Shown here: positions 44,157 to 60,265 of the stretch, in pieces
Position numbering within the stretch: position 1 is the first letter of the stretch
Layout: every line of letters begins with the position of its first letter
Assembly (NCBI RefSeq): GCF_026151205.1
Contig: NC_087073.1
Span: 8,719,411-8,783,410 of the forward strand
DNA length: 64,000 nt
Source of the DNA: Bolinopsis microptera
Lineage: Eukaryota > Ctenophora > Tentaculata > Lobata > Bolinopsidae
Reading direction: 5' to 3'
Made by a program: the position numbers and the translations under genes
The notes under the pieces: generated by a model
Seen by the model: the letters and a program-made list of their open reading frames with translations, nothing else
Told to the model about the DNA's origin: nothing
Database searches by the model: none

Positions 44157-45946
44157 TCATTTGACCAGCATGCAAAAGATAAAGCCGACAGTGTTCACCA
44201 GACAAGCTGCAACTGCTACTCCAATAGCAGGAATTTCACTTGCTCTAGTGAGAGTAAAGCCACTGAGAACAACGCCAACAACCTGAGACATGCAAAAGAA
44301 AAGGTTGAAAACTGCTGTAGATCGCTCAGCCAAACCATCTGTTTTCACTCCCCACTTTTCGAACAAACTGAATTTGCTCATAACTGCTATGTTTAAAACT
44401 GCCGCATCTCCAAACCCCAGAAGCACAGAGCCTATTTCAAAGGAAGCCGGGAACACCAGAAAATCTGTCGTTGACCCAAAAGCTAGAACGGCTCCCAAGT
44501 AAAATGCTATATTACCTATAAGCATGACAGTATTTGCCCTTATTTTCCTGTCTGCTATAAATCCAAGGGCTGTACTCGAAAGAAATGCAACAACGATCAT
44601 CAATGAGCTGAGTAAGACAGCTGTACTCAGTGACTTACCATTGAACTCTTTTATTCTTGGTGGAATAGAATACAGGAGGATAATGTAAACACTGTTATTC
44701 AGGAAGACGGCGACATCAGGAACAAAGAAAACCAGTTGTTGACTTCTGCTTGGTTTGTCTTTTAAAATGCGTCCATTTCCGTTCGCTTCATGTTCAGTCG
44801 TTGTCGAGAATACTCGATTTGTAGCCGCCCCAGTCTCCACCATTCGTTGTATTCTTCCGATGAATGGGAGGAGTAGGATGGGAATGATATCAAAGATAGC
44901 GATAAGAAATCCTGTTAGCATCCATCCTCCCGATATGTATAGTTCGGCGCCAACAATTACTGCTATGATAATCCCTACATGCATCGATCCACTTATGAAA
45001 ACCATCAATGTCTTCTTATCTGCCAAATACAGATCCACGATCTCTCCCTAAAGTAAATATTATGAAATATCAACATTTTTGTTATAAATTTGCAGTCAGA
45101 CCTGAAATCCTAATTGAGATGGATCCTTCATTTAATCTGCAACTACATACAATATAGGAATTGGTAATCAAACTCGCCTGTACAGTCACAAAGAAGAGTC
45201 CAGCACAGAAACCCTGTAAAGCTCTGCTAACTCCAATAACAGTGAATACAAGCGCTCCTCTTGGGTCCAATTTTACCATTACATCTACTGCAGCCATTAC
45301 GAAGTAGCACAAAATGTTGCCCGTAATGAGGATTAAACATCTTTTTGTAAGTGGAATCTTTCTGAAGCCAGGGAGGATAGTGGAAATGTAGGGGCTGATA
45401 GCTTGGGTGATGACCATTACTACTATAGCTATAGTACCTGTCAGGAGAAAGTAACGGTCAAAACATTTTATATTTTTTCACTGAAACTTTTACAGTATGA
45501 CTTTGTGTTTAGAGGTCGATTACGAAAATGTTTACGATGCTTACCAAACGTTTTATTCAGGCTATTCTCTGTTAGAAAATCTATGTAAAACCCAGCCGTG
45601 TAATTTCTTGCTATGAAAACAGTTCCATTTCCAAAACAGGCAAATATGACAATCAAAGCTAGTTGATGATTTGTTATCTTTTTAGCATCTCCTGGGGGAT
45701 AATTATCTCATTAAATTCAGTTTACAGCTTAAACCTTACTTTTTAAACAGGAAACGAGTTATATCTACCATATGCACAAATAGAAGCTGAAGTAAAGTTG
45801 ACAAATTGCATTACTTTAAAAGGTTTACCTTTAGCATCTCCTGCACTTATTCTGTCCGAAGGTTTACTGTTATTAGGTTCCAACTCCAGAGCTCCAACTG
45901 CAGCGTTGTTTGCTACTACATAATCATTATTGTCTCCATCCATCAT
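44157..45946 (-). CDS. MFS-like 12-TM transporter, tandem copy A, four exons, 471 residues
   Basis: Exons in transcript order: 45946-45829, 45691-45545, 45437-45178, 45047-44157; all phases fit. The product starts with a short acidic N-terminus (ELEPNNSKPSD), then TM1 (LALIVIFACFGNGTVFIARN), and continues with about 12 hydrophobic segments. A central cytosolic loop follows PFIGRIQRM, and a motif A-like loop LGFIADRKIRANT sits between TM8 and TM9. Substrate and exact MFS family are unknown. The donor after VTVQ is GC (GCGAGT), and no in-phase GT alternative was found. Intron 1 (45,692-45,828) is bounded by the 12-mer GGAGATGCTAAA on both sides. It is nearly identical to copy D throughout, including introns, so the duplication or gene conversion is recent. 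Confidence 0.85.
45692..45828 (-). other. Short intron bounded by 12-bp direct repeats, copy A
   Basis: A 137-nt intron of MFS copy A. GGAGATGCTAAA (minus strand) occurs at 45,841-45,830 and 45,692-45,681, so the coding sequence reads GDAKGDAK across the junction. Copies C and E have a single GDAK and no intron here. Equivalent introns are at 50,605-50,742 (B) and 56,420-56,548 (D). Confidence 0.85.
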
Positions 45947-46304
45947 TTCCAGTTATCAACGAAAAAGTAGGTACAGACCACTGCTTTTAAAATCGAAATC
46001 ACAAAGAAATTTTCGCTGATTGAAGATTAAAAGTGGGCAGATGAAGACACAACAATAAAATCAAGATCAGTGTTTCTCAGTGCCGGCAGTAAAATAGTAA
46101 AATAGACTCGGATTCCATGTTCGTAAATTAATTATGTCGCGTGAAATGGATACGTAAAGATCCAGACACTGCAATATAAACAGTGTTAAAATTCACTCAT
46201 CTAGGAAAATGTACGGGGTGCAAAGATCACAGCATACCGCCAAAGTCATCATTCCTGCGAATTTTGCACTTACAATCATATAGTAAAGATTTTTAATCAA
46301 ATTA
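45947..46304. other. 5' flank of MFS copy A
   Basis: Duplicated non-coding unit shared with 53,590-54,230, 51,120-51,310 and 62,298-62,562 (for example AAGATTAAAAGTGGG, then TGTTTCTCAGTGCCGGCAG, TTATGTCGCGTGAAATGGAT). It is presumed to contain the promoter. Confidence 0.7.
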
Positions 46305-46928
46305 ATTACTTACTTTGTTACTTTGTAGGGCTTCATAGAATCCTCTATCGGGCCATCGAAAAAGTCGACCCCCCGGACAGTGTAGAAACTGTTTTATCAC
46401 CACTCCAATCAAGCAAGGAGTTTCCATTCCGACGGTTGTATCCTGGAGCTGGAGGCTCGTCCGGAAATGACTTCACAAAGTTCGTTAAAGCTACTTTGAA
46501 TTGCATAGGATCCTCGATGGTGTGCATATGTGTTGGGATTACATTCCATAATCGAGGTCCAGTGACTGCAAATGAGTTGTCATGTAGTGCTTGATTACGT
46601 TGACTGCTGGACTTACCTATACTGGGCACAACTGCTTTTTGACCATGTCTGAGAGTCACCGAGAACTGGATACCAATATCATTAGGGCACTTGCAATGCA
46701 GAACTTTCCACATGTTGATGATTAAATACCGTTCTCTTCTTCTTTGCAATGACATCAGATCTAGGGCCTTTAATCTCTGCCAGTAGTTGAGGTGCTGGTG
46801 CCATCTATTTTCGATGTAAACGTACGCTGAATCCCTTCTAGCTGTTGGATGTCCTTGTTCTTAGAGCAATTCCACAGAGGACAGCAATACTCCAGATGAC
46901 TTCTAACGAGAGACTTGTACATTGTAAT
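46305..46928 (-). pseudogene. 3' fragment of a CR1/L2-like LINE
   Basis: Minus-strand remnant of a reverse transcriptase C-terminus: TMYKSLVRSHLEYCCPLWNCS, then after a frameshift near 46,800 HLNYWQRLKALDLMSLQRRRERY, NSFAVTGPRLWNVIPTH and a GTAA-rich tail. It is inserted in the flank between MFS copies A and B; the uninterrupted flank is seen at 54,225-54,260. Non-functional. Confidence 0.85.
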
Positions 46929-47572
46929 TGATTTCGTATTTTTTGCTTAGTTTCATATACAGCAAAATATGTTTATCATCAGTTCCAAAAGAGATGAGAC
47001 CCGTATGGCGTATATCTTGATCCATCTGTGTTAGGAAAATCTGAACCACTGGTTCTCGGTATGAAAAAAGGTCTCAATTATTGCTGAATTCCGCCTAGTC
47101 GTTGCGGCAAATCGTTCTGTGTGGTATCGGTAAATAGCGAATAGTTCAATTCCCTCAGTTTTAAATAACTTTCAAATTAAAATAGTTTATACATTAACTG
47201 TCGACTGTCAAGTATAGTTTATCATAGTACATAATATCATAGGGCCCTTGGCCAAACTGTATAATATATTGTGATTAATTGATGTTTGCATTTTTATGGT
47301 ATTGACATTACTATCCCCCAGTAATTTTGAAATTCGAGATCATGAAACAGTTAAACCAGTGATCAAATTGAGATAAACTTTGAAAATTACAGTATCATCA
47401 AAATATAGAATAAAGAATAAAGATGAACCTTCTGTTGCTTAAAAATAGTAAAACGAAAACCAACAAATCTGTCGTTCAATAGAAAGTCGGGAAATACTAC
47501 ACAACATACATTCGTAATGAGATTTTTGTTAGTCATTCTTACGTTTTTGGAGCGGGGACAAGTTTGTGACTA
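46929..47572. other. Spacer between MFS copies A and B
   Basis: Non-coding duplicated spacer, nearly identical to 54,235-54,883 before copy D (shared: GAGACCCGTATGGCGTATAT and TCTGAACCACTGGTTCTCGG). No gene seen. Confidence 0.75.
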
Positions 47573-50500
47573 TCATTTGACCAGCATGCACAATATAAAG
47601 CCGACAGTATTCACCAGACACGCTGCAACTGCTACTCCAATAGCAGGAATTTCACTTGCTCTAGTGACAGTAAAGCCACTGAGAACAGCGCCAAAAGCCT
47701 GAGAAATGCAAAAGAAGAAGTTAAAAACTGCTGTAGATCGCTCAGCCAAACCGTCTGTTTTGATTCCCCACTTTTCGTACATACCAAATTTACTCATAAT
47801 CGCTATGTTGATAACGGCTGCATCACCGATTCCAACAAGGACAGAACCTATTTCAAAAGAAGCCGGGAAGGCCAAAAACTCTGTCGTAGATCCAAAAGCT
47901 AGAATGGCTCCCAAGTAAAATGCTATATTACTAGAAAAAAAATTTGCTATTTTTGTCTGTTATAAAACAGAGTTATTGAAGGAATACAACGACAAAAAAT
48001 GAGAACGGTGTACCAGGATATTAATCTAACGTTGTTCAGGAAGACTGCGATATCAGGAACAAAGAAAGCCAGTCGTTGAATTGTGCTTAGATTATCTTTT
48101 AGATCCCGTCCATTAGCGATTACTTCCACTCTTGTCGACTGTATGTTTTTTAACCCTGCTCCACTCCCCTTCTTTCTTTGTATTCTACCGATGAAAGGAA
48201 GCAGCAAGATGAGGAGGACATCAAAAACAGCGATTAGGAATCCAGTCAGCATCCATCCCCCTGCTATGTAAAGTTGTGCCCCGACATTAGTTGATATAAT
48301 TAACGCTACATGCATCGATCCACTTATGATAACCATCAATATCTTCTTATCTGCCAAATACAGATCACAATCTCCCCCTGGAAGTACTTTGGTAAATATA
48401 AAATATAGCACAATTCTTTGCATTGATATTTGAGCAGAGAATTCAATGCATGGTTTTAACATTTAAAAATTATGATGATTTTGATGTTATTACTGACATG
48501 TATGTTTAATGTTTATCGAAACTGCACACGATTTGGCGTACATATCATAAACTATTAATATTATGCCATTCATAATTTTGGTGCATAAGTTGTGAATCTC
48601 AAAATAAATCCTGGAATGTATGGACATTGTCAGTGAGATACTAGAGAAGGACGGGTCAGCTGATATACTGTATCTCGATTTTCAGAAGGCTTTCGATTCT
48701 GTACCACACAAACGATTGCTGAGAAAATTGCAATCCTTTGGAATATCTGGCAACACCCTTGCAGTCGTGGAAGACTTTCTAACAGGAAGAACATTTCGCG
48801 TCAGGGTTGGATCATCATTTTCTAGAGTCTTTGCTGTAACATCTGGGGTCCCTCAAGGAACCGTGCTGGGCCCCCTGCTCTTCCTGCTCTTCATAAATGA
48901 TCTCCCTGATGGAATTGAGAGCTTCGTATCACTCTTTGCTGACGATCTTAAGCTAGTAACGAGCACAGCTAAGCACAGTGTTGCACAAGATGATATACTG
49001 AAACTCAATGCGTGGGAGAAGGAATGGCTCCTAAGATTCAATGTGAAGGATGGCAAGTGTAAGGTACTACATATTGGGCGTAACAATCCAATGCATGAGT
49101 ACTTCATGAATGGGGAATGCCTCCCCCAAGTGAAGTCAGAAAAGGATCTTGGAGTTCTAACTACCAGAAACCTGGACTGGAGTGACCATATAGATAAGTC
49201 CGTGAAAAAAGCAAAGTCTGTTATAGGCTGGATCAAACGAAGCTTGATCTGCCGTAACAAATTTGTTATGCTAAATGTCTACCGAACTCTAGTTCGACCT
49301 CACATCGAATACGCTGTGCAAGTGTGGAATCTACCAGCAGAGCACGGAAACTGGAGGACTATTAAGAAGATAGAAGATGTTCAGAGAGAATTTACACGAA
49401 TAATCGACGGGATTGGTATCCTACCATACGATGAGAGACTGAGAATCCTCCAGTTAACAACACTACTGGAGCGCCGTATGAGGGGTGATCTTATTGAAAC
49501 CTTTAAAATAACGACGGGTAAAGTGGACTATGGACAAGATCTTTTCAGGATATCACGTAGTGGTACCAAGATCCTAAAAGATAAAAGAGGAAATCAGGTC
49601 CTCAGTAACCGGGTTGCCAATTACTGGAACAAAGTACCAAGTTCGGTTAAAGAAGCCAGTTCAGTAGACGCATTCAAAGCTCGACTTCAATGTTATAAAA
49701 ATGAACTGATAGCGAGTGGAGCATCGTCAAAGGGTCACTTCTGGGATCTCAGCGAAACCTTAATGTCAAAAATAAATACATGTGAGCATGATTCATATGC
49801 ATATTTCATGTCTAATAACCCATTGATTGCTAAATACCGAGGAATCAATGTATCTTGATTGTTAAATTCAGAACTACATGTTAACGTCCTTAAAATAATT
49901 AATCATTACATGTTCCGGATAGGAACATTTTTCTTTTTGAAAATATTGTGCGAACTGCAATAGCGTAGAGTGCAGTTGGGTTTCAAGTTTTGTCGAGATG
50001 GCTATGTGGCCATAATCCTATTATTATTATTATTATGTAATGATATAACTCACCTGGACGATCACAAAGAAAAGGCCAGCAAAAACGCCCTGTAAAGCTC
50101 TGGTAATTCCAATAACAGTAAACACAAGCGCTCCTTCCGGATTCTTCTCCACCATTACATCTACTGCAGCCATTACGAAGTAGCACAAAATGTTGCCCGT
50201 AATGAGCATCAAACATCTTTTTGTAAGTTGAATCTTTCTGAAGCCAGGGAGGATAGTTGAAATGTAAGGGCTGATAGCTTGGGTGATAACCATTGTTGAT
50301 ATGGCTAAAGTACCTGTTCAGAGAAATGTACTGTCAAAACATTTTAACTTTGTGGGAATACTTTCTTGATAATTTGTAATGGAACTGAAAGTGTGGTTGA
50401 CTGAAATTTTAAAGATTATATAATATCGTTGGTATGTGTATTGTTAATAGTACTCACCAAAAATTGTATCGAGGCCATTCTCTGTTAGAAAATCTATGTA

Positions 50501-50860
50501 AAACCCAGCCGTGAAACTCCTTGCTATAAATATAGTTCCATTTCCAAAACAGGCAAATATGACAATCAAAGCTAGTTGACAGCTTGTTATCTTTTTAGCA
50601 TCTCCTGGGGGATAATTATCTCATTAAAGTCAGTTTACGGCTTAAACCTTACTTTTGTACATGAAACGAGTTATGTCTCTACATTGTGCACAAATAGAAG
50701 CTGAAGTAAAGTTGACAAATTGCATTACTTTAAAAGGTTAACCTTTAGCATCTCCTTCATCTATATTGTCCGAAGGTTTACTGTTATTAGGTTCCAACTC
50801 CAGAGCTCCAACTGCAGCGTTGTTTGCTACTAAAACATCATCAATCATCATTGTCTCCAT
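47573..50860 (-). pseudogene. MFS-like transporter, tandem copy B, broken
   Basis: Exons 1-3 (50860-50743, 50604-50458, 50313-50054) are intact in phase, but exon 4 is wrecked. A base is lost just after its acceptor (GGGGAGATTGTGATC where other copies read GGAGAGATTGTGGATC). Its middle, about 47,915-48,030, is deleted and scrambled so that two separate frames remain (48,462-47,947 and 47,914-47,573). Intron 3 holds a 1.4-kb LINE insertion. A 7-bp length change after ATGGATGGAGACAAT means that only a shifted ATG at 50,860 stays in frame. A fragment matching the lost middle of exon 4 lies at 51,321-51,520. Intron 1 carries the same 12-bp bordering repeat as copies A and D. Confidence 0.85.
48606..50035 (+). 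mobile_element. 5'-truncated CR1/L2-like LINE inserted in intron 3 of MFS copy B
   Basis: Encodes the C-terminal 412 residues of a reverse transcriptase (48,620-49,858): YLDFQKAFDSVPHKRLL, SGVPQGTVLGPLLFLLFIND, catalytic FADDLKL, and the C-terminal block RVANYWNKVPSSVKEASSVD. The frame is open to the last codon, so it is young or conserved, but the N-terminal half and any endonuclease are missing. The element ends in an (ATT)n tail at about 50,018-50,035. Borders are placed by comparison with the empty introns of copies C and E. Confidence 0.88.
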
Positions 50861-51320: not shown

Positions 51321-51520
51321 AAAACTCTGTCGTAGATCCAAAAGCTAGAATGGCTCCCAAGTAAAATGCTATATTACCTATAAATAAGAATGACAAAATT
51401 TGATGCTATTTTCCTGTCCACTATAAAACCTAGAGCCATACTTGAAAGAAATCCTACAACGATCATCAATGAGTTGAGCAACACGGCCGTACTGAGCGAC
51501 TTTCCATTAAAATCTTTAAT
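51321..51520 (-). pseudogene. Displaced internal fragment of MFS exon 4
   Basis: Minus strand encodes IKDFNGKSLSTAVLLNSLMI, GFLSSMALGFIVDRKI and, after a small change, the NIAFYLGAILAFGSTTEF region. This is the part of exon 4 that copy B lacks. It has no splice sites or start of its own, and sits 3.3 kb upstream of its expected place. Confidence 0.8.
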
Positions 51521-51786
51521 TGAAAGATTAAAGATTAAAACAATAAAATCAAGATCAGTATTTAGCATATAACGAATATTCTGTTAGTCAATAACTACAC
51601 TGTGGTTATTGTAGAGAAAGAAGCATAAAAGAAGCTATTATGGTCGATGCAGATTCGGACCCATGACATACCATACGTATAAATCGTCACCCATTAGCCA
51701 TTACAAAAAGCAATTTAATTAAATCCACAAGTTTATAACGGTCATATCGAAACACTGTCCTTACAACTTTTAGAAAAACAGGATTC

Positions 51787-53589
51787 CTATGAATATTTCA
51801 CCATCGAACTCCAGATAAAGCCGACAGTATTCACCAGACACGCTGCAAGTGCTGTTGCAATCAGAGGAATTTCGCTTGCCCTAGAAACAGTCAATCCGCT
51901 GAGCACAGTTCCCACTGCTTGAGAAATACAGAAGCAGAAGTTGAAAACTGCTGTAGATTGCTCTGCTAAACCGCCCGTCTTCACGCCCCACTTTTCGTAC
52001 ATACCAAATTTACTCATAACGGCTATGTTTAAAACTGCTGCATCCCCAAACCCGACAAGCGCTGAACCTATTTCGAAAGAAGCTGGGAAGGCTAGAAACT
52101 CTGTCGTAGATCCAAAAGCTAGAATAGCTCCCACATAGAATGCTATATTACCTATAAGCATAACAGAATTTGACTTCATTTTCCTGTCTGCTACGAAACC
52201 AAGAGTTATGCTTGAAAGAAATCCAACAACAGTCATCAATGAGCTGAGCAACACGGCCGTACTCAGTGATTTTCCAGTGAACTTTTTTATCCTTTGTGGG
52301 ATAGCATACAAGAGAAGAATGTAAGTAACGTTGTTCAGGAAAACTGCGACATCAGGAACACAAAAAGCCAGTCGTTGAGTCCTACTAGGTTTGTCTTTTA
52401 GACTCTTCCCATTTGTGCTAGGATCTGTACTAGTCGTCGATACTTTGTTTGAAGCCAACACCTCCTTAATCTCCACATTTCTCTGTAATCTGCCAATAAA
52501 TGGGAGGAATAAGATGGGGATAATACCGAAGATAGCGATAAGAAATCCAGTGAGTATCCATCCCCCTGCTATGTAGAGTTGTGTCCCAACAATTACTGCT
52601 ACGATTGTTCCTACATGCATCGATCCACTTATGATAACCATCAATGTCTTCTTATCTGCCAAATACAGATCCACAATCTCTCCCTGGAAGTACTTTGGTA
52701 AATATAAAATATAGCACGGTCGTACCATTTTGGTATATAATCAATTCTTTGCATTGATATTTGAGCCGAGAATTCAATGCATGGTGTTAAAACTGACATG
52801 TATGTTTAATGTTTATCCAAGCCGCACACGCATGCGTATAGGCGTACATAATTTAAACCATTTATTTTATGCCGTTCATAATTTTGGTACATTAGTTGTG
52901 AATCTCAATATATAAATATAATGATTAAATAACTCACCTGGACGATCACAAAGAAAAGTCCAGCAAAAACGCCCTGTAAAGCTCTGGTAACTCCAATAAC
53001 AGTAAACACAAGCGTTCCTTCCGGATTCTTCTCCACCATTGCATCTACTGCAGCCATTACGAAGTAGCACAAAATGTTGCCCGAAATAAGGATTAAACAT
53101 CTTTTTGTAAGTTGAATCTTTCTGAAGCCAGGGAGGATAGTGGAAATGTAAGGGCTGATAGCTTGGGTGATAACCATTGTTGATATGACTAAAGTACCTG
53201 TTCAGAGAAATGTGCTGTCAAAACATTTTAACATTGTGGGAATACTTTCTTGATCATTTGTAATGAAACTGTTGCAAGTGTGATTGAGTGAAATTTTAAC
53301 ATATCGCTGATATGTTAGTGTTTTAGATGGTACTCACCAAACGTTTTATTCAGGCCATTCTCTGTTAGAAAATCTATGTAAAATCCAGCCGTGTAATTTC
53401 TTGCTATGAAAACAGTTCCACTTCCAAAACAGGCAAATAGGACAATCAAAGCTAGTTGACAGCTTGTTATTTTTTAGCATCTCCTGCAGGACTTATTCTG
53501 TCCGAAGGTTTACTGTTATTAGATTCCAACTCCAGAATTCCAACTGCAGCGTTGTTTGCTACAACATAATCATTATTGTCTCCATCCAT
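51787..53589 (-). pseudogene. MFS-like transporter, tandem copy C, one-base frameshift in exon 1
   Basis: Exons 53589-53338 (no intron 1), 53197-52938, 52683-51787. Exons 2-3 are fully open, and exon 3 encodes the same 12-TM protein as copy E (GEIVDLYLADKKTLMVIISG onward, ending SSMVKYS). Exon 1 has lost one base near 53,472: the copies with AAAAAGATAACA here read AAAAAATAACA, giving an immediate stop after GDAKK. Everything else, including the canonical GT donors, is intact, so it is a very recent pseudogene or a sequencing error in a homopolymer. Confidence 0.75.
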
Positions 53590-54883
53590 CACTTCCAGTT
53601 ATCAACGAAAAAGTAGTAACTACAGACCACTGCTTTAATCGAAACGTTCCCGTAAGGAAATGATAAGAAAGTAAGAACGAACGAAAAAATGAAATTGCAA
53701 AGAATCAGCAACCAGTTTGCTGATAAGATTTGAGTTACACAATCTTATCACTGTTTAATTAATTACATTATTATTTATCCGTTCAAAATTCGACACCGAA
53801 AGGACCACGCCAACATATAATACATATTATATTATGTTGTAAATTATAAATATCTAATTGGTCCTACAAATTAATAAGAATAAAACCAATGTTCTTCGTT
53901 TTTGAACACAGTGAGCTGGACGCCCAATTCACAAAACAATGTTCGCTAATTGAAGATTAAAAGTGGGTCGCTGCACAACAATAAAATCAAGATCAGTGTT
54001 TCTCAGTGCCGGCAGTAAAATAGTGAAATAGGCTCGGAATTTCGATGTTCGTAAATTAATTATGTCGCGTGAAATGGATATGTAAAGATCCAGACACTGC
54101 AATATAAACAGTGTTAAATTCACTCATCTGGGAAAATGTACGGGGTGCAAAGATCACGGCATACCGCCAAAGTCATCATTCCTGCGAATTTTTCACTTAC
54201 AATCATATAATAAAGATTTTTAATCAAATCAGTTGATTTCATATTTTTTGCCAGCTTAGATTCACATACAGCAAAATATTTTCATCATCAGTTCCAAAAG
54301 AGATGAGACCCGTATGGCGTATATCTTGATCCATCTGTGTTAGGAAAATCTGAACCACTGGTTCTCGGTATGAAAGGTCTCAATTATTGCTGAATTACGC
54401 CTCTAGTCGTTGCGGCAAATCGTTCTGTGTGGTATCGGGAAATAGCGAATAGTTCAATTCCCTCAGTTTTAAATAACTTTCAAATTAACATAGTTTATGA
54501 AGTAACTGTCGACTGTCAAGTATAGTTTATCATAGTACATATTAATATCATAGGGCCCTTGGCCAAACTGTATAATAATTAATATTGTGATTAATTGATA
54601 TTTACATTTTTATGGTATTGACATTACTATCCGCCAGTAATTTTTAAATTCGAGATCATGAAACAGTTAAACCAGTGATCAAATTGAGATAAACTTTGAA
54701 AATAACAGTATCATCAAAATATAGAATAAATATTAAATATGAACCTTCTGTTGCTTAAAAATAGTAAAACAAAAACCAACAAATCTGTCGTTCAATAGAA
54801 AGTCGGGAAATACTACACAACATCATAATGAGATTATTGTTAGTCATTCTTACGTTTTTGGAGCGGGGGCAAGTTTGTGACTA
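53590..54883. other. 5' flank of copy C and spacer before copy D
   Basis: Non-coding. It is the uninterrupted version of the array spacer and serves as the empty-site reference for the LINE fragment at 46,305-46,928. No separate gene seen. Confidence 0.7.
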
Positions 54884-56666
54884 TCATTTGACCAGCATGC
54901 AAAAGATAAAGCCCACAGTATTCACCAGACAAGCTGCAACTGCTACTCCAATAGCAGGAATTTCACTTGCTCTAGTGAGAGTAAGGCCACTGAGAACAAC
55001 GCCAACAACCTGAGACATGCAAAAGAAAAGGTTGAAAACTGCTGTAGATCGCTCAGCCAAACCATTTGTTTTCACTCCCCACTTTTCGAACAAACTGAAT
55101 TTGCTCATAACAGCTATGTTTAAAACTGCCGCATCTCCAAATCCCAGAAGCACAGAGCCTATTTCAAAGGAAGCCGGGAACACCAGAAAATCTGTCGTTG
55201 ACCCAAAAGCTAGAACGGCTCCCAAGTAAAATGCTATATTACCTATAAGCATGACAGTATTTGCCCTTATTTTCCTGTCTGCTATAAATCCAAGGGCTGT
55301 ACTCGAAAGAAATGCAACAACGATCATCAATGAGCTGAGTAAGACAGCTGTACTCAGTGACTTACCATTGAACTCTTTTAATCTTGGTGGAATAGAATAC
55401 AGGAGGATAATGTAAACACTGTTATTCAGGAAGACGGCGACATCAGGAACAAAGAAAACCAGTTGTTGACTTCTGCTTGGTTTGTCTTTTAAAATGCGTC
55501 CATTTCCGTTCCCTTCATGTTCAGTCGTTGTCGACAATACTCGATTTGTAGCCGCCCCAGTCTCCACCATTCGTTGTATTCTTCCGATGAATGGGAGGAG
55601 TAGGATGGGAATGATATCAAAGATAGCGATAAGAAATCCTGTTAGCATCCATCCTCCCGATATGTATAGTTCGGCGCCAACAATTACTGCTATGATAATC
55701 CCTACATGCATCGATCCACTTATGAAAACCATCAATGTCTTCTTATCTGCCAAATACAAATCCACGATCTCTCCCTGAAGTAAATATTATGAAATTATCA
55801 ACATTTTTGTTATAAATTTGCATTCAGACCTAAAATCCTGATTGAGATGGATCCTTCATTTAATCTGCAACTACATACAATATAGGAGTTAGTAATCAAA
55901 CTCGCCTGTACAGTCACAAAGAAGAGTCCAGCACAGAAACCTTGTAAAGCTCTGCTAACTCCAATAACAGTGAATACAAGCGCTCCTCTTGGTTCCAATT
56001 TTACCATTACATCTACTGCAGCCATTACGAAGTAGCACAAAATGTTGCCCGTAATGAGCATCAAACATCTTTTTGTAAGTGGAATCTTTCTGAAGCCAGG
56101 GAAGATAGTGGAAATGTAGGGGCTGATAGCTTGGGTGATGACCATTACTACTATAGCTATAGTACCTGTCAGGAGAAAGTAACGGTCAAAACATTTTATA
56201 TTTTTTCACTGAAACTTTTACAGTATGACTTTGTGTTTAGAGGTCGATTACGAAAATGTTTACGATGCTTACCAAACGTTTTATTCAGGCTATTCTCTGT
56301 TAGAAAATCTATGTAAAACCCAGCCGTGTAATTTCTTGCTATGAAAACAGTTCCATTTCCAAAACAGGCAAATATGACAATCAAAGCTAGTTGATAATTT
56401 GTTATCTTTTTAGCATCTCCTGGGGGATAATTATCTCATTAAAGTCAGCTTACGGCTTAAACCTTACTTTGTAAACATGAAATGAGTTATATCTAAATAG
56501 AAGCTGAAGTAAAGTTGACAAATTGCATTACTTAATAAAAAGGTTAACCTTTAGTATCTCCTGGAGGACTTATTCTGTCCGAGGGTTTACTGTTATTAGG
56601 TTCCAACTCCAGAACTCCAACTGCAGCGTTGTTTGCTACTACAACATCATTATTGTCTCCATCCAT
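54884..56666 (-). CDS. MFS-like 12-TM transporter, tandem copy D, four exons, 471 residues
   Basis: Exons 56666-56549, 56419-56273, 56165-55906, 55774-54884; all phases fit and no disruption was seen. The protein differs from copy A at only a handful of positions (for example LKEF for IKEF and GLTL for GFTL), and introns 2 and 3 are almost the same base for base. It shares copy A's GC donor after VTVQ (GCGAGT) and the bordered intron 1 (here GGAGATACTAAA on the upstream side). Features otherwise as in copy A: short acidic N-terminus, about 12 membrane segments, motif A-like GFIADRK. Substrate unknown. Confidence 0.85.
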
Positions 56667-58464: not shown

Positions 58465-60265
58465 CTATTTCACCATAGAACTCCAGATAAAGCCGACAGT
58501 ATTCACCAGACACGCTGCAAGTGCTGTTGCAATCAGAGGAATTTCGCTTGCCCTAGAAACAGTCAATCCGCTGAGCACAGTTCCAACTGCTTGAGAAATA
58601 CAGAAGCAGAAGTTGAAAACTGCTGTAGATTGCTCTGCTAAACCGTCCGTCTTCACGCCCCACTTTTCGTACATACCAAATTTACTCATAACGGCTATGT
58701 TTGAAACTGCTGCAGCACCGAACCCGACAAGCGCTGAACCTATTTCGAAAGAAGCCGGGAAGGCTAGAAACTCTGTCGTAGATCCAAAAGCTAAAATGGC
58801 TCCCACATAGAATGCTATATTACCTATAAGCATAACAGAATTTGACTTCATTTTCCTGTCTGCTACGAAACCAAGAGTTATGTTTGTAAGAAATCCAACA
58901 ACAATCGTCAATGAGCTGATCAGCACGGCTGTGCTCAGTGATTTTCCAGTGAACTTTTTTATTCTTTGTGGGATAGCGTACAAGAGAAGAATGTAAGAAA
59001 CGTTGTTCAGGAAAACTGCGACATCAGGAACACAGAAAGCCAGTCGTTGACTCCTACTAGGTTTGTCTTTTAGACTCTCTCCATTTGTGCTAGGATCTGT
59101 ACTAGTCGTCGATACTTTGTTTGAAGCCAACACCTCCTCATTCTCCATATTTTTCTGTATTCTGCCAATAAATGGGAGGAATAAGATGGGGATGATACCG
59201 AAGATAGCGATAAGGAATCCAGTGAGCATCCATCCCCCTGCTATGTAGAGTTGTGTCCCAACAATGAATGCTACGATTGTTCCTACATGCATCGATCCAC
59301 TTATGATAACCATCAATGTCTTCTTATCTGCCAAATACAGATCCACAATCTCTCCCTGGAAGTACTTTGGTAAATATAAAATATAGCACGGTCGTACCAT
59401 TTTGGTAGATCAATTGTTTGCATTGATATTTGAGCCGAGAATTCAATGCATGATGTTAAAACTGACATGTATGTTTAATGTTTATCCAAGCTGCACGCGC
59501 ATGCTTATTATAGGCGTACGTAACATAAACCATTAATTTGATGCCGTTCATAATTTTGGTGCATAAGTTGTAAATCTCAATATATAAATATAATGATTAA
59601 GTAACTCACCTGGACGATCACAAAGAAAAGTCCAGCAAAAACGCCCTGTAAAGCTCTGCTAACTCCAATAACAGTAAACACAAGCGCTCCTTCCGGATTC
59701 TTCTCTACCATTACATCAACTGCAGCCATTACGAAGTAACACAAAATGTTGCCCGTAATGAGCATCAAACATCTTTTTGTAAGTTGAATCTTTCTGAAGC
59801 CAGGTAGGATAGTAGAAATGTAAGGGCTGAAAGCTTGGGTGATAACCATTGTTGATATGGCTAAGGTACCTGTTCAAAGAAATGAACTATCAAAACATTT
59901 TAACTTTGTGGGAGTACTTTCTTGATAATTTGTAATGGAACTGAAAGTGTGATTGAGTGACATTTTAAAGATCACATATTGCTGATATGTTAGTGTTTTA
60001 ATTGATACTCACCAAACGTTTTATTGAGGCTATTATCTGTTAAAAAATCTATGTAAAATCCAGCCGTGTAATTTCTTGCTATGAAAACAGTTGTACTTCC
60101 AAAACAGGCAAATAGGACAATCAAAGCTAGTTGACAGCTTGTTATCTTTTTAGCATCTCCTGGAGGACTTATTCTGTCCGAGGGTTTACTGTTATTAGGT
60201 TCCAGCTCCAGAACTCCAACTGCAGCGTTGTTTGCTACTACATAATCATTATTGTCTCCATCCAT
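58465..60265 (-). CDS. MFS-like 12-TM transporter, tandem copy E, three exons, 467 residues
   Basis: Exons 60265-60013, 59869-59610, 59355-58465; phases fit and the frame is open. Exon 1 is the fusion of exons 1 and 2 of copies A, B and D: it reads SPPGDAKKITSCQL without interruption, so intron 1 is absent. The donor after VIVQ is canonical GTGAGT. The protein is closest to copy C (shared LASNKVSTTSTDPSTNG in the central loop and SSMVK at the end). About 12 hydrophobic segments and the loop GFVADRKMKSN are present. Substrate unknown. Start Met is taken by homology with copies A and D. Confidence 0.85.

Follow-up and report, generated by a model that had tools for sequence, protein, structure and literature searches.

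An intron lying just before the first transmembrane segment in a tandem family of MFS transporter genes of the ctenophore Bolinopsis microptera is present in the copies A, B and D and absent in C and E. This intron 1 is with high probability ancestral and was lost in the lineage of C and E, whichever came first, the loss or the direct repeat that borders the intron. As for the course of events, we favor with moderate confidence a deletion of the old phase-1 intron in the common ancestor of C and E between repeats that were already in place, with A, B and D keeping the intron. The loss is indicated by an intron at the same site in outgroup copies, by the nesting of C and E among intron-bearing genes, by the retention of introns 2 and 3 in both copies and by the in-frame junction of E. 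A recent intron gain, on which the original prediction for this DNA had laid the stress, is contradicted by the intron-bearing outgroups and by the nested position of C and E.

Intron 1 and its bordering repeat in copies A to E

The analyzed window is the whole stretch of 64,000 nucleotides from contig NC_087073.1, and all coordinates are positions within it. The features considered are the following:

45829-45943, minus strand: copy A, coding part of exon 1, 38 codons plus 1 nt, ending with the upstream 12-mer plus G
45692-45828, minus strand: copy A, intron 1, 137 nt, GTAAAC...CCCCCAG, phase 1
45830-45841, minus strand: copy A, upstream 12-mer, where exon 1 of the outgroups ends
45681-45692, minus strand: copy A, downstream 12-mer, start of exon 2; the intron ends with the first G of this 12-mer
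50743-50860, minus strand: copy B, coding part of exon 1, 39 codons plus 1 nt
50605-50742, minus strand: copy B, intron 1, 138 nt, GTTAAC...CAG
53338-53589, minus strand: copy C, fused exon 1+2, no intron; frameshift with TAA at 53467-53469
53473-53484, minus strand: copy C, single 12-mer
56549-56666, minus strand: copy D, coding part of exon 1; CCT codon and one substitution in common with C and E
56420-56548, minus strand: copy D, intron 1, 129 nt, GTTAAC...CAG
60013-60265, minus strand: copy E, fused exon 1+2, no intron, frame open
60149-60160, minus strand: copy E, single 12-mer

Exact copies of the 12-mer GGAGATGCTAAA are found on the minus strand at 45681-45692, 45830-45841, 50594-50605, 50744-50755, 53473-53484, 56409-56420 and 60149-60160. 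These positions correspond to the predicted ones at all sites but that of C, where the 12-mer starts at 53,473 and not at 53,470. The claim that it stands on both sides of the intron holds exactly for A and B; in D, the upstream copy (56550-56561, minus strand) has one mismatch and reads GGAGATACTAAA, so that D would read GDTKGDAK. Allowing for at most one mismatch, eight matches were counted against 0.26 expected, and none of 100 shuffles reached eight. In A, the identical core of the repeat comprises 14 nt (CAGGAGATGCTAAA). Intron 1 measures 137 nt in A, 138 nt in B and 129 nt in D, in agreement with the predicted 129-138 nt; it is of the GT..AG type in all three genes and lies between the two 12-mers. 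Likewise as predicted, C and E contain a single 12-mer and no intron 1.

If intron 1 were read through unspliced, translation would stop at the second codon past the 12-mer in B and D and 28 codons past it in A. Since these early stops mean that splicing is needed for coding to continue, intron 1 of A, B and D is presumably spliced in RNA. The junction in E is in frame and the frame is open. Copy C carries a 1-nt deletion directly after the 12-mer, which leads to the TAA at 53467-53469, about 40 codons into the gene, and possibly reflects a pseudogene, a downstream start or an assembly error; exons 3 and 4 of C are open despite this stop. Introns 2 and 3 are present in both C and E. By eye, intron 3 of A and D seemingly starts with GC (CAG/GCGAGT, the slash marking the splice site) and thus seems to be a GC-AG intron, with GT found at this place in B, C and E.

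The conceptual protein of E matched the Pfam family MFS_1 (E-value 6.2e-13; 48.8 bits at a cut-off of 33.4); a sequence comparison of this protein with solved structures yielded no match at an E-value of 0.01. In copy B (47570-50860), about 56 residues of exon 4 are missing. On the same strand and 5′ of B, a fragment at about 51374-51565 corresponds to residues 287-351 of the E protein, the stretch that B is missing. Intron 1 was also considered as a dispersed element, and this was rejected: in a search of the whole genome with the 161-nt intron region, in which very common words were skipped and some stretches read N, only A, B and D were matched. The occurrences at other loci that the original prediction had proposed to look for were thus not found in this search.

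Outgroup copies and the direction of change

A protein search of the same genome revealed two further tandem copies, F and G, 5-12 kb past the end of the window, and distant relatives on other contigs. The paralogue set consisted of 23 fetched loci (L001 to L023, with L001 being F). F, G and L003 contain an intron at the same position and in the same phase 1 as A, B and D. At the end of exon 1, F reads GAAACAGAAG/GTAAATC, and at the start of exon 2 it reads CCTTCAG/GAGATGCTAAAAAG; in G, the corresponding borders are GACCAAG/GTAAATC and CCTCCAG/GAGATGCTAAAAAG, with an earlier AG (CATTTAG) likewise being in phase. Donor and acceptor of F and G have the common form AAG/GTAAATC and CAG/GAGATGCTAAA, respectively. 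L003 has the donor GCTCAAG/GTAAAAC and the acceptor CTGACAG/GAAATGTT, its exon 2 starting with GAAATG. By eye, a candidate exon 1 with phase-1 donor and phase-1 acceptor was also recognized in L005, L007, L008 and L009, with the donor of L005 being weak and L009 being a near copy of L008.

Exon 2 was located in 21 of the 23 loci (none in L021 and L023), and a phase-1 AG stands just before it in all 21, which is common by chance and for itself weak evidence. In 13 of these 21 loci, the frame is stopped upstream of exon 2 with no Met, so that an earlier exon is needed. The other eight have an in-frame Met, located after the AG in L001 (F), L004, L011, L012 and L013; in L007 and L016, both with a candidate exon 1, the Met precedes the AG. 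In L015 (G000:C9:12810700-12812700), the last of these eight, the reading frame runs open through the intron site for about 100 codons, and ATATTCTTGCAG directly precedes exon 2 in the same frame; exon 1 of this locus matches the relatives weakly (E-value about 14). This locus looks intronless at the same site and possibly represents an independent loss of the same intron with the intron tail kept.

The tree with outgroups that the original prediction had proposed was computed from the proteins encoded by exons 2-4 (12 rows; B was dropped, its exon 4 being incomplete). C and E form one clade (support 99/97; 98% of bootstrap trees) inside the intron-bearing genes, and the sister of this clade is the intron-bearing F (support 87/94). 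A label test, which speaks for clustering only, gave 34 of 500 shuffles as low. As C and E are nested among intron-bearing genes and the outgroups have an intron at the same site, the intron is ancestral and its absence in C and E a loss; the loss named as an option in the original prediction hence stands, with its repeat-first course being one of two possible orders. Given the intron-bearing outgroups, the most economical explanation is a single loss in the lineage of C and E. Gene conversion among the copies blurs any tree.

In local alignments of the intron bodies of A, B and D with those of F and G, no score rose above shuffle level, 99-390 of 400 shuffles being as high; global scores of the same pairs, which include the intron ends, were better in some cases (4-77 of 400). 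Between A and L003, the match of intron 1 weakly exceeds chance (3 of 400 shuffles locally, 13 of 400 trimmed). As the match of the intron bodies is mostly at shuffle level, the orthology of the introns is judged from their position, their phase and the exon context. Given this poor match, the old intron may also have been lost and a new one gained at the same site; parallel gains at one site are reported for Daphnia in the excerpted text of PMC4202315.

The upstream repeat and the probable course of the loss

The repeat at both intron ends is found in A, B and D, and the upstream 12-mer is absent in F, G and L003. The original prediction had regarded outgroup orthologues with the intron and both 12-mers as the mark of a loss in C and E; in essence, this came true, the outgroups proving to have the intron, except that F, G and L003 lack the upstream 12-mer. 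Exon 1 comprises 38 codons in A and 39 in B and D, compared to 35 in F, 38 in G and 40 in L003, meaning that the 12-mer added no length. It stands where exon 1 of the outgroups ends and is therefore probably no target-site duplication. Of the 18 nt at the end of exon 1, 13 are the same in A as in G and 11 the same in B as in G, with none of 97 other offsets as good in either case. The agreement is weak with F (A 9/18, 6 of 88 offsets as good; B 10/18, 3 of 88) and L003 (A 9/18, 6 of 103 offsets; B 11/18, 4 of 103), and for L003 at 31 nt 35 of 90 offsets were as good. In our view, the upstream 12-mer represents the original end of exon 1, apparently changed toward the start of exon 2. It differs from G by five substitutions, all of them toward identity with the start of exon 2. 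As five convergent substitutions are much for chance, the 12-mer was likely made by copying; the source would be the gene itself if this preceded the loss, and an intronless copy if it followed.

The copies also show signs of exchange. From exon 2 on, A and D are 97-100% alike, whereas no variable column of the 5′ UTR and exon 1 unites these two alone; there, D is united with C and E by the CCT codon and one substitution, and with E by one more. Between A and E, identity amounts to 88-96% in the 5′ UTR and exon 1 and 66-87% in exon 4, and for F and E the relation is reversed (46-67% and 89-100%, respectively). Judging by these identities, a block comprising the 5′ end of the gene has been exchanged between copies, D being composed of a C/E-like exon 1 and an A-like remainder. 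C, D and E, but not A and B, have the CCT codon, which may have been inserted into exon 1 or have remained from the tail of the intron (TCCTCC); the TCCTGCAG of C and the TCCTCCAG of E agree with either origin. The intergenic blocks 46189-47507 (upstream of A) and 54116-54823 (downstream of D) are 95-97% alike, apparently a trace of the duplication of the array.

According to the favored reading, exon 1 of the ancestral A-E exon block would have acquired an end identical to the start of exon 2, with CAGGAGATGCTAAA bordering the intron on either side. In the ancestor of C and E, the intron would then have been deleted in frame from one repeat to the other, one of the two repeats being lost with it. 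We infer that the repeat predated the loss and guided the deletion, and that the break was repaired by microhomology-mediated end joining or single-strand annealing. The retention of introns 2 and 3 in C and E, their lack of one GDAK and the absence of a retrocopy (no match in the genome to the spliced junction GGAGATGCTAAAGGAGATGCTAAA at up to two mismatches) fit such a genomic deletion and do not fit recombination with a reverse-transcribed mRNA. That route is widely supported for intron loss in general, according to the part of PMC4683709 dealing with it; here it would leave GDAKGDAK, as the original prediction correctly argued, or AEDQGDAK if it started from a G-like ancestor, and C and E have one GDAK. 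We consider it extremely unlikely for C and E.

The order of events could also have been the opposite one. A G-like ancestor would have lost the intron by deletion at a short CAG, common to exon 1 (GTGCAG) and the 3′ splice site (CCAG), and the intronless copy would subsequently have converted its intron-bearing neighbors; with the conversion tract running 12 nt beyond true homology, the start of exon 2 would have been written onto the end of the neighbors' exon 1, making the repeat of A, B and D a scar and not the cause of the loss. In line with this, the flanks of G joined at CAG give GGTGCAGGAGATGCTAAAAAG, in frame and with the TGCAGGAGATGCTAAA of C and of A's upstream end, the join at the common CAG being TGCAGGAGATGCTAAAAAG, in frame as in C. 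The upstream 12-mer would then equal the start of exon 2 without five convergent substitutions, and the likeness of A and E in the 5′ UTR and exon 1 but not in exon 4 as well as the mosaic structure of D would be accounted for. However, the intron would have to stay in, or return to, genes with C/E-like exons 1 and 2 (A and E are about 91% identical in exon 2), the missing CCT codon in A and B would require a donor exon older than the CCT insertion, and a single loss is simpler. This order therefore appears possible but rather unlikely. A recent gain in A, B and D, be it by insertion with target-site duplication, by double-strand-break repair or by tandem duplication, would match the direct repeat of 12-14 nt at the intron borders, which resembles the repeats flanking many new Daphnia introns in the excerpt of PMC4202315, and would also match the missing clear sequence similarity to the introns of F and G and the restriction of the genome-wide intron matches to A, B and D. 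Nevertheless, it has to be judged very unlikely, given that F, G and L003 have an intron that agrees in phase and, to the nucleotide, in position, that C and E are nested among intron-bearing genes and that exon 1 is not lengthened by the upstream 12-mer.

Comparison with known intron losses and gains

Microhomology-mediated intron loss in metazoa was reportedly described by van Schendel and Tijsterman in 2013. As proposed for the copies studied here, single introns are lost in such cases by end joining, with short repeats near the splice sites. The repeat of 12-14 nt found here is longer than the range of 3-8 bp surveyed in the relevant section of PMC9169325. Intron deletion at flanking direct repeats has been presented for Drosophila (PMC3296678) and is discussed in PMC9169325 and PMC4683709, as far as the excerpts of these papers go. 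The Drosophila case is the imprecise intron loss in GH15541 of Drosophila grimshawi (Yenerall et al., 2011; PMC3296678), for which the excerpt likewise describes a genomic deletion of the intron, probably with flanking direct repeats, and proposes end joining. It rests on a comparison of orthologues and left intron-derived bases in the exon, whereas tandem paralogues are compared here; the TCCTCC in E could be leftover intron bases as well. The new introns of Daphnia, in the portion of PMC4202315 devoted to them, are similar in having short direct repeats, flanking or internal, and in occurring in some copies only, but there the intron is derived, whereas here the outgroups have it. Transfer of an intron between paralogues by gene conversion (PMC3443670, in excerpt) is comparable in that paralogues differing in an intron exchange sequence; for the genes studied here, what is supported is exchange at exon 1 rather than transfer of the intron itself.

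The case is thus a further example of the known loss of introns by deletion, found here in tandem paralogues. Tentatively, the direct repeat bordering the intron could instead be the scar of gene conversion from an intronless paralogue that mimics a target-site duplication. An intron present in some copies and absent in others, with a clean flanking repeat, can mimic a fresh gain until the outgroup copies are read. If conversion is indeed the origin of the repeat, "new introns" published for gene families with repeats at their borders could in some cases be old ones, and a repeat at the end of an intron would not be safe evidence of gain in such families. Otherwise, the MFS genes of B. microptera would represent an ordinary intron loss, unusually clear with both states side by side in tandem copies.
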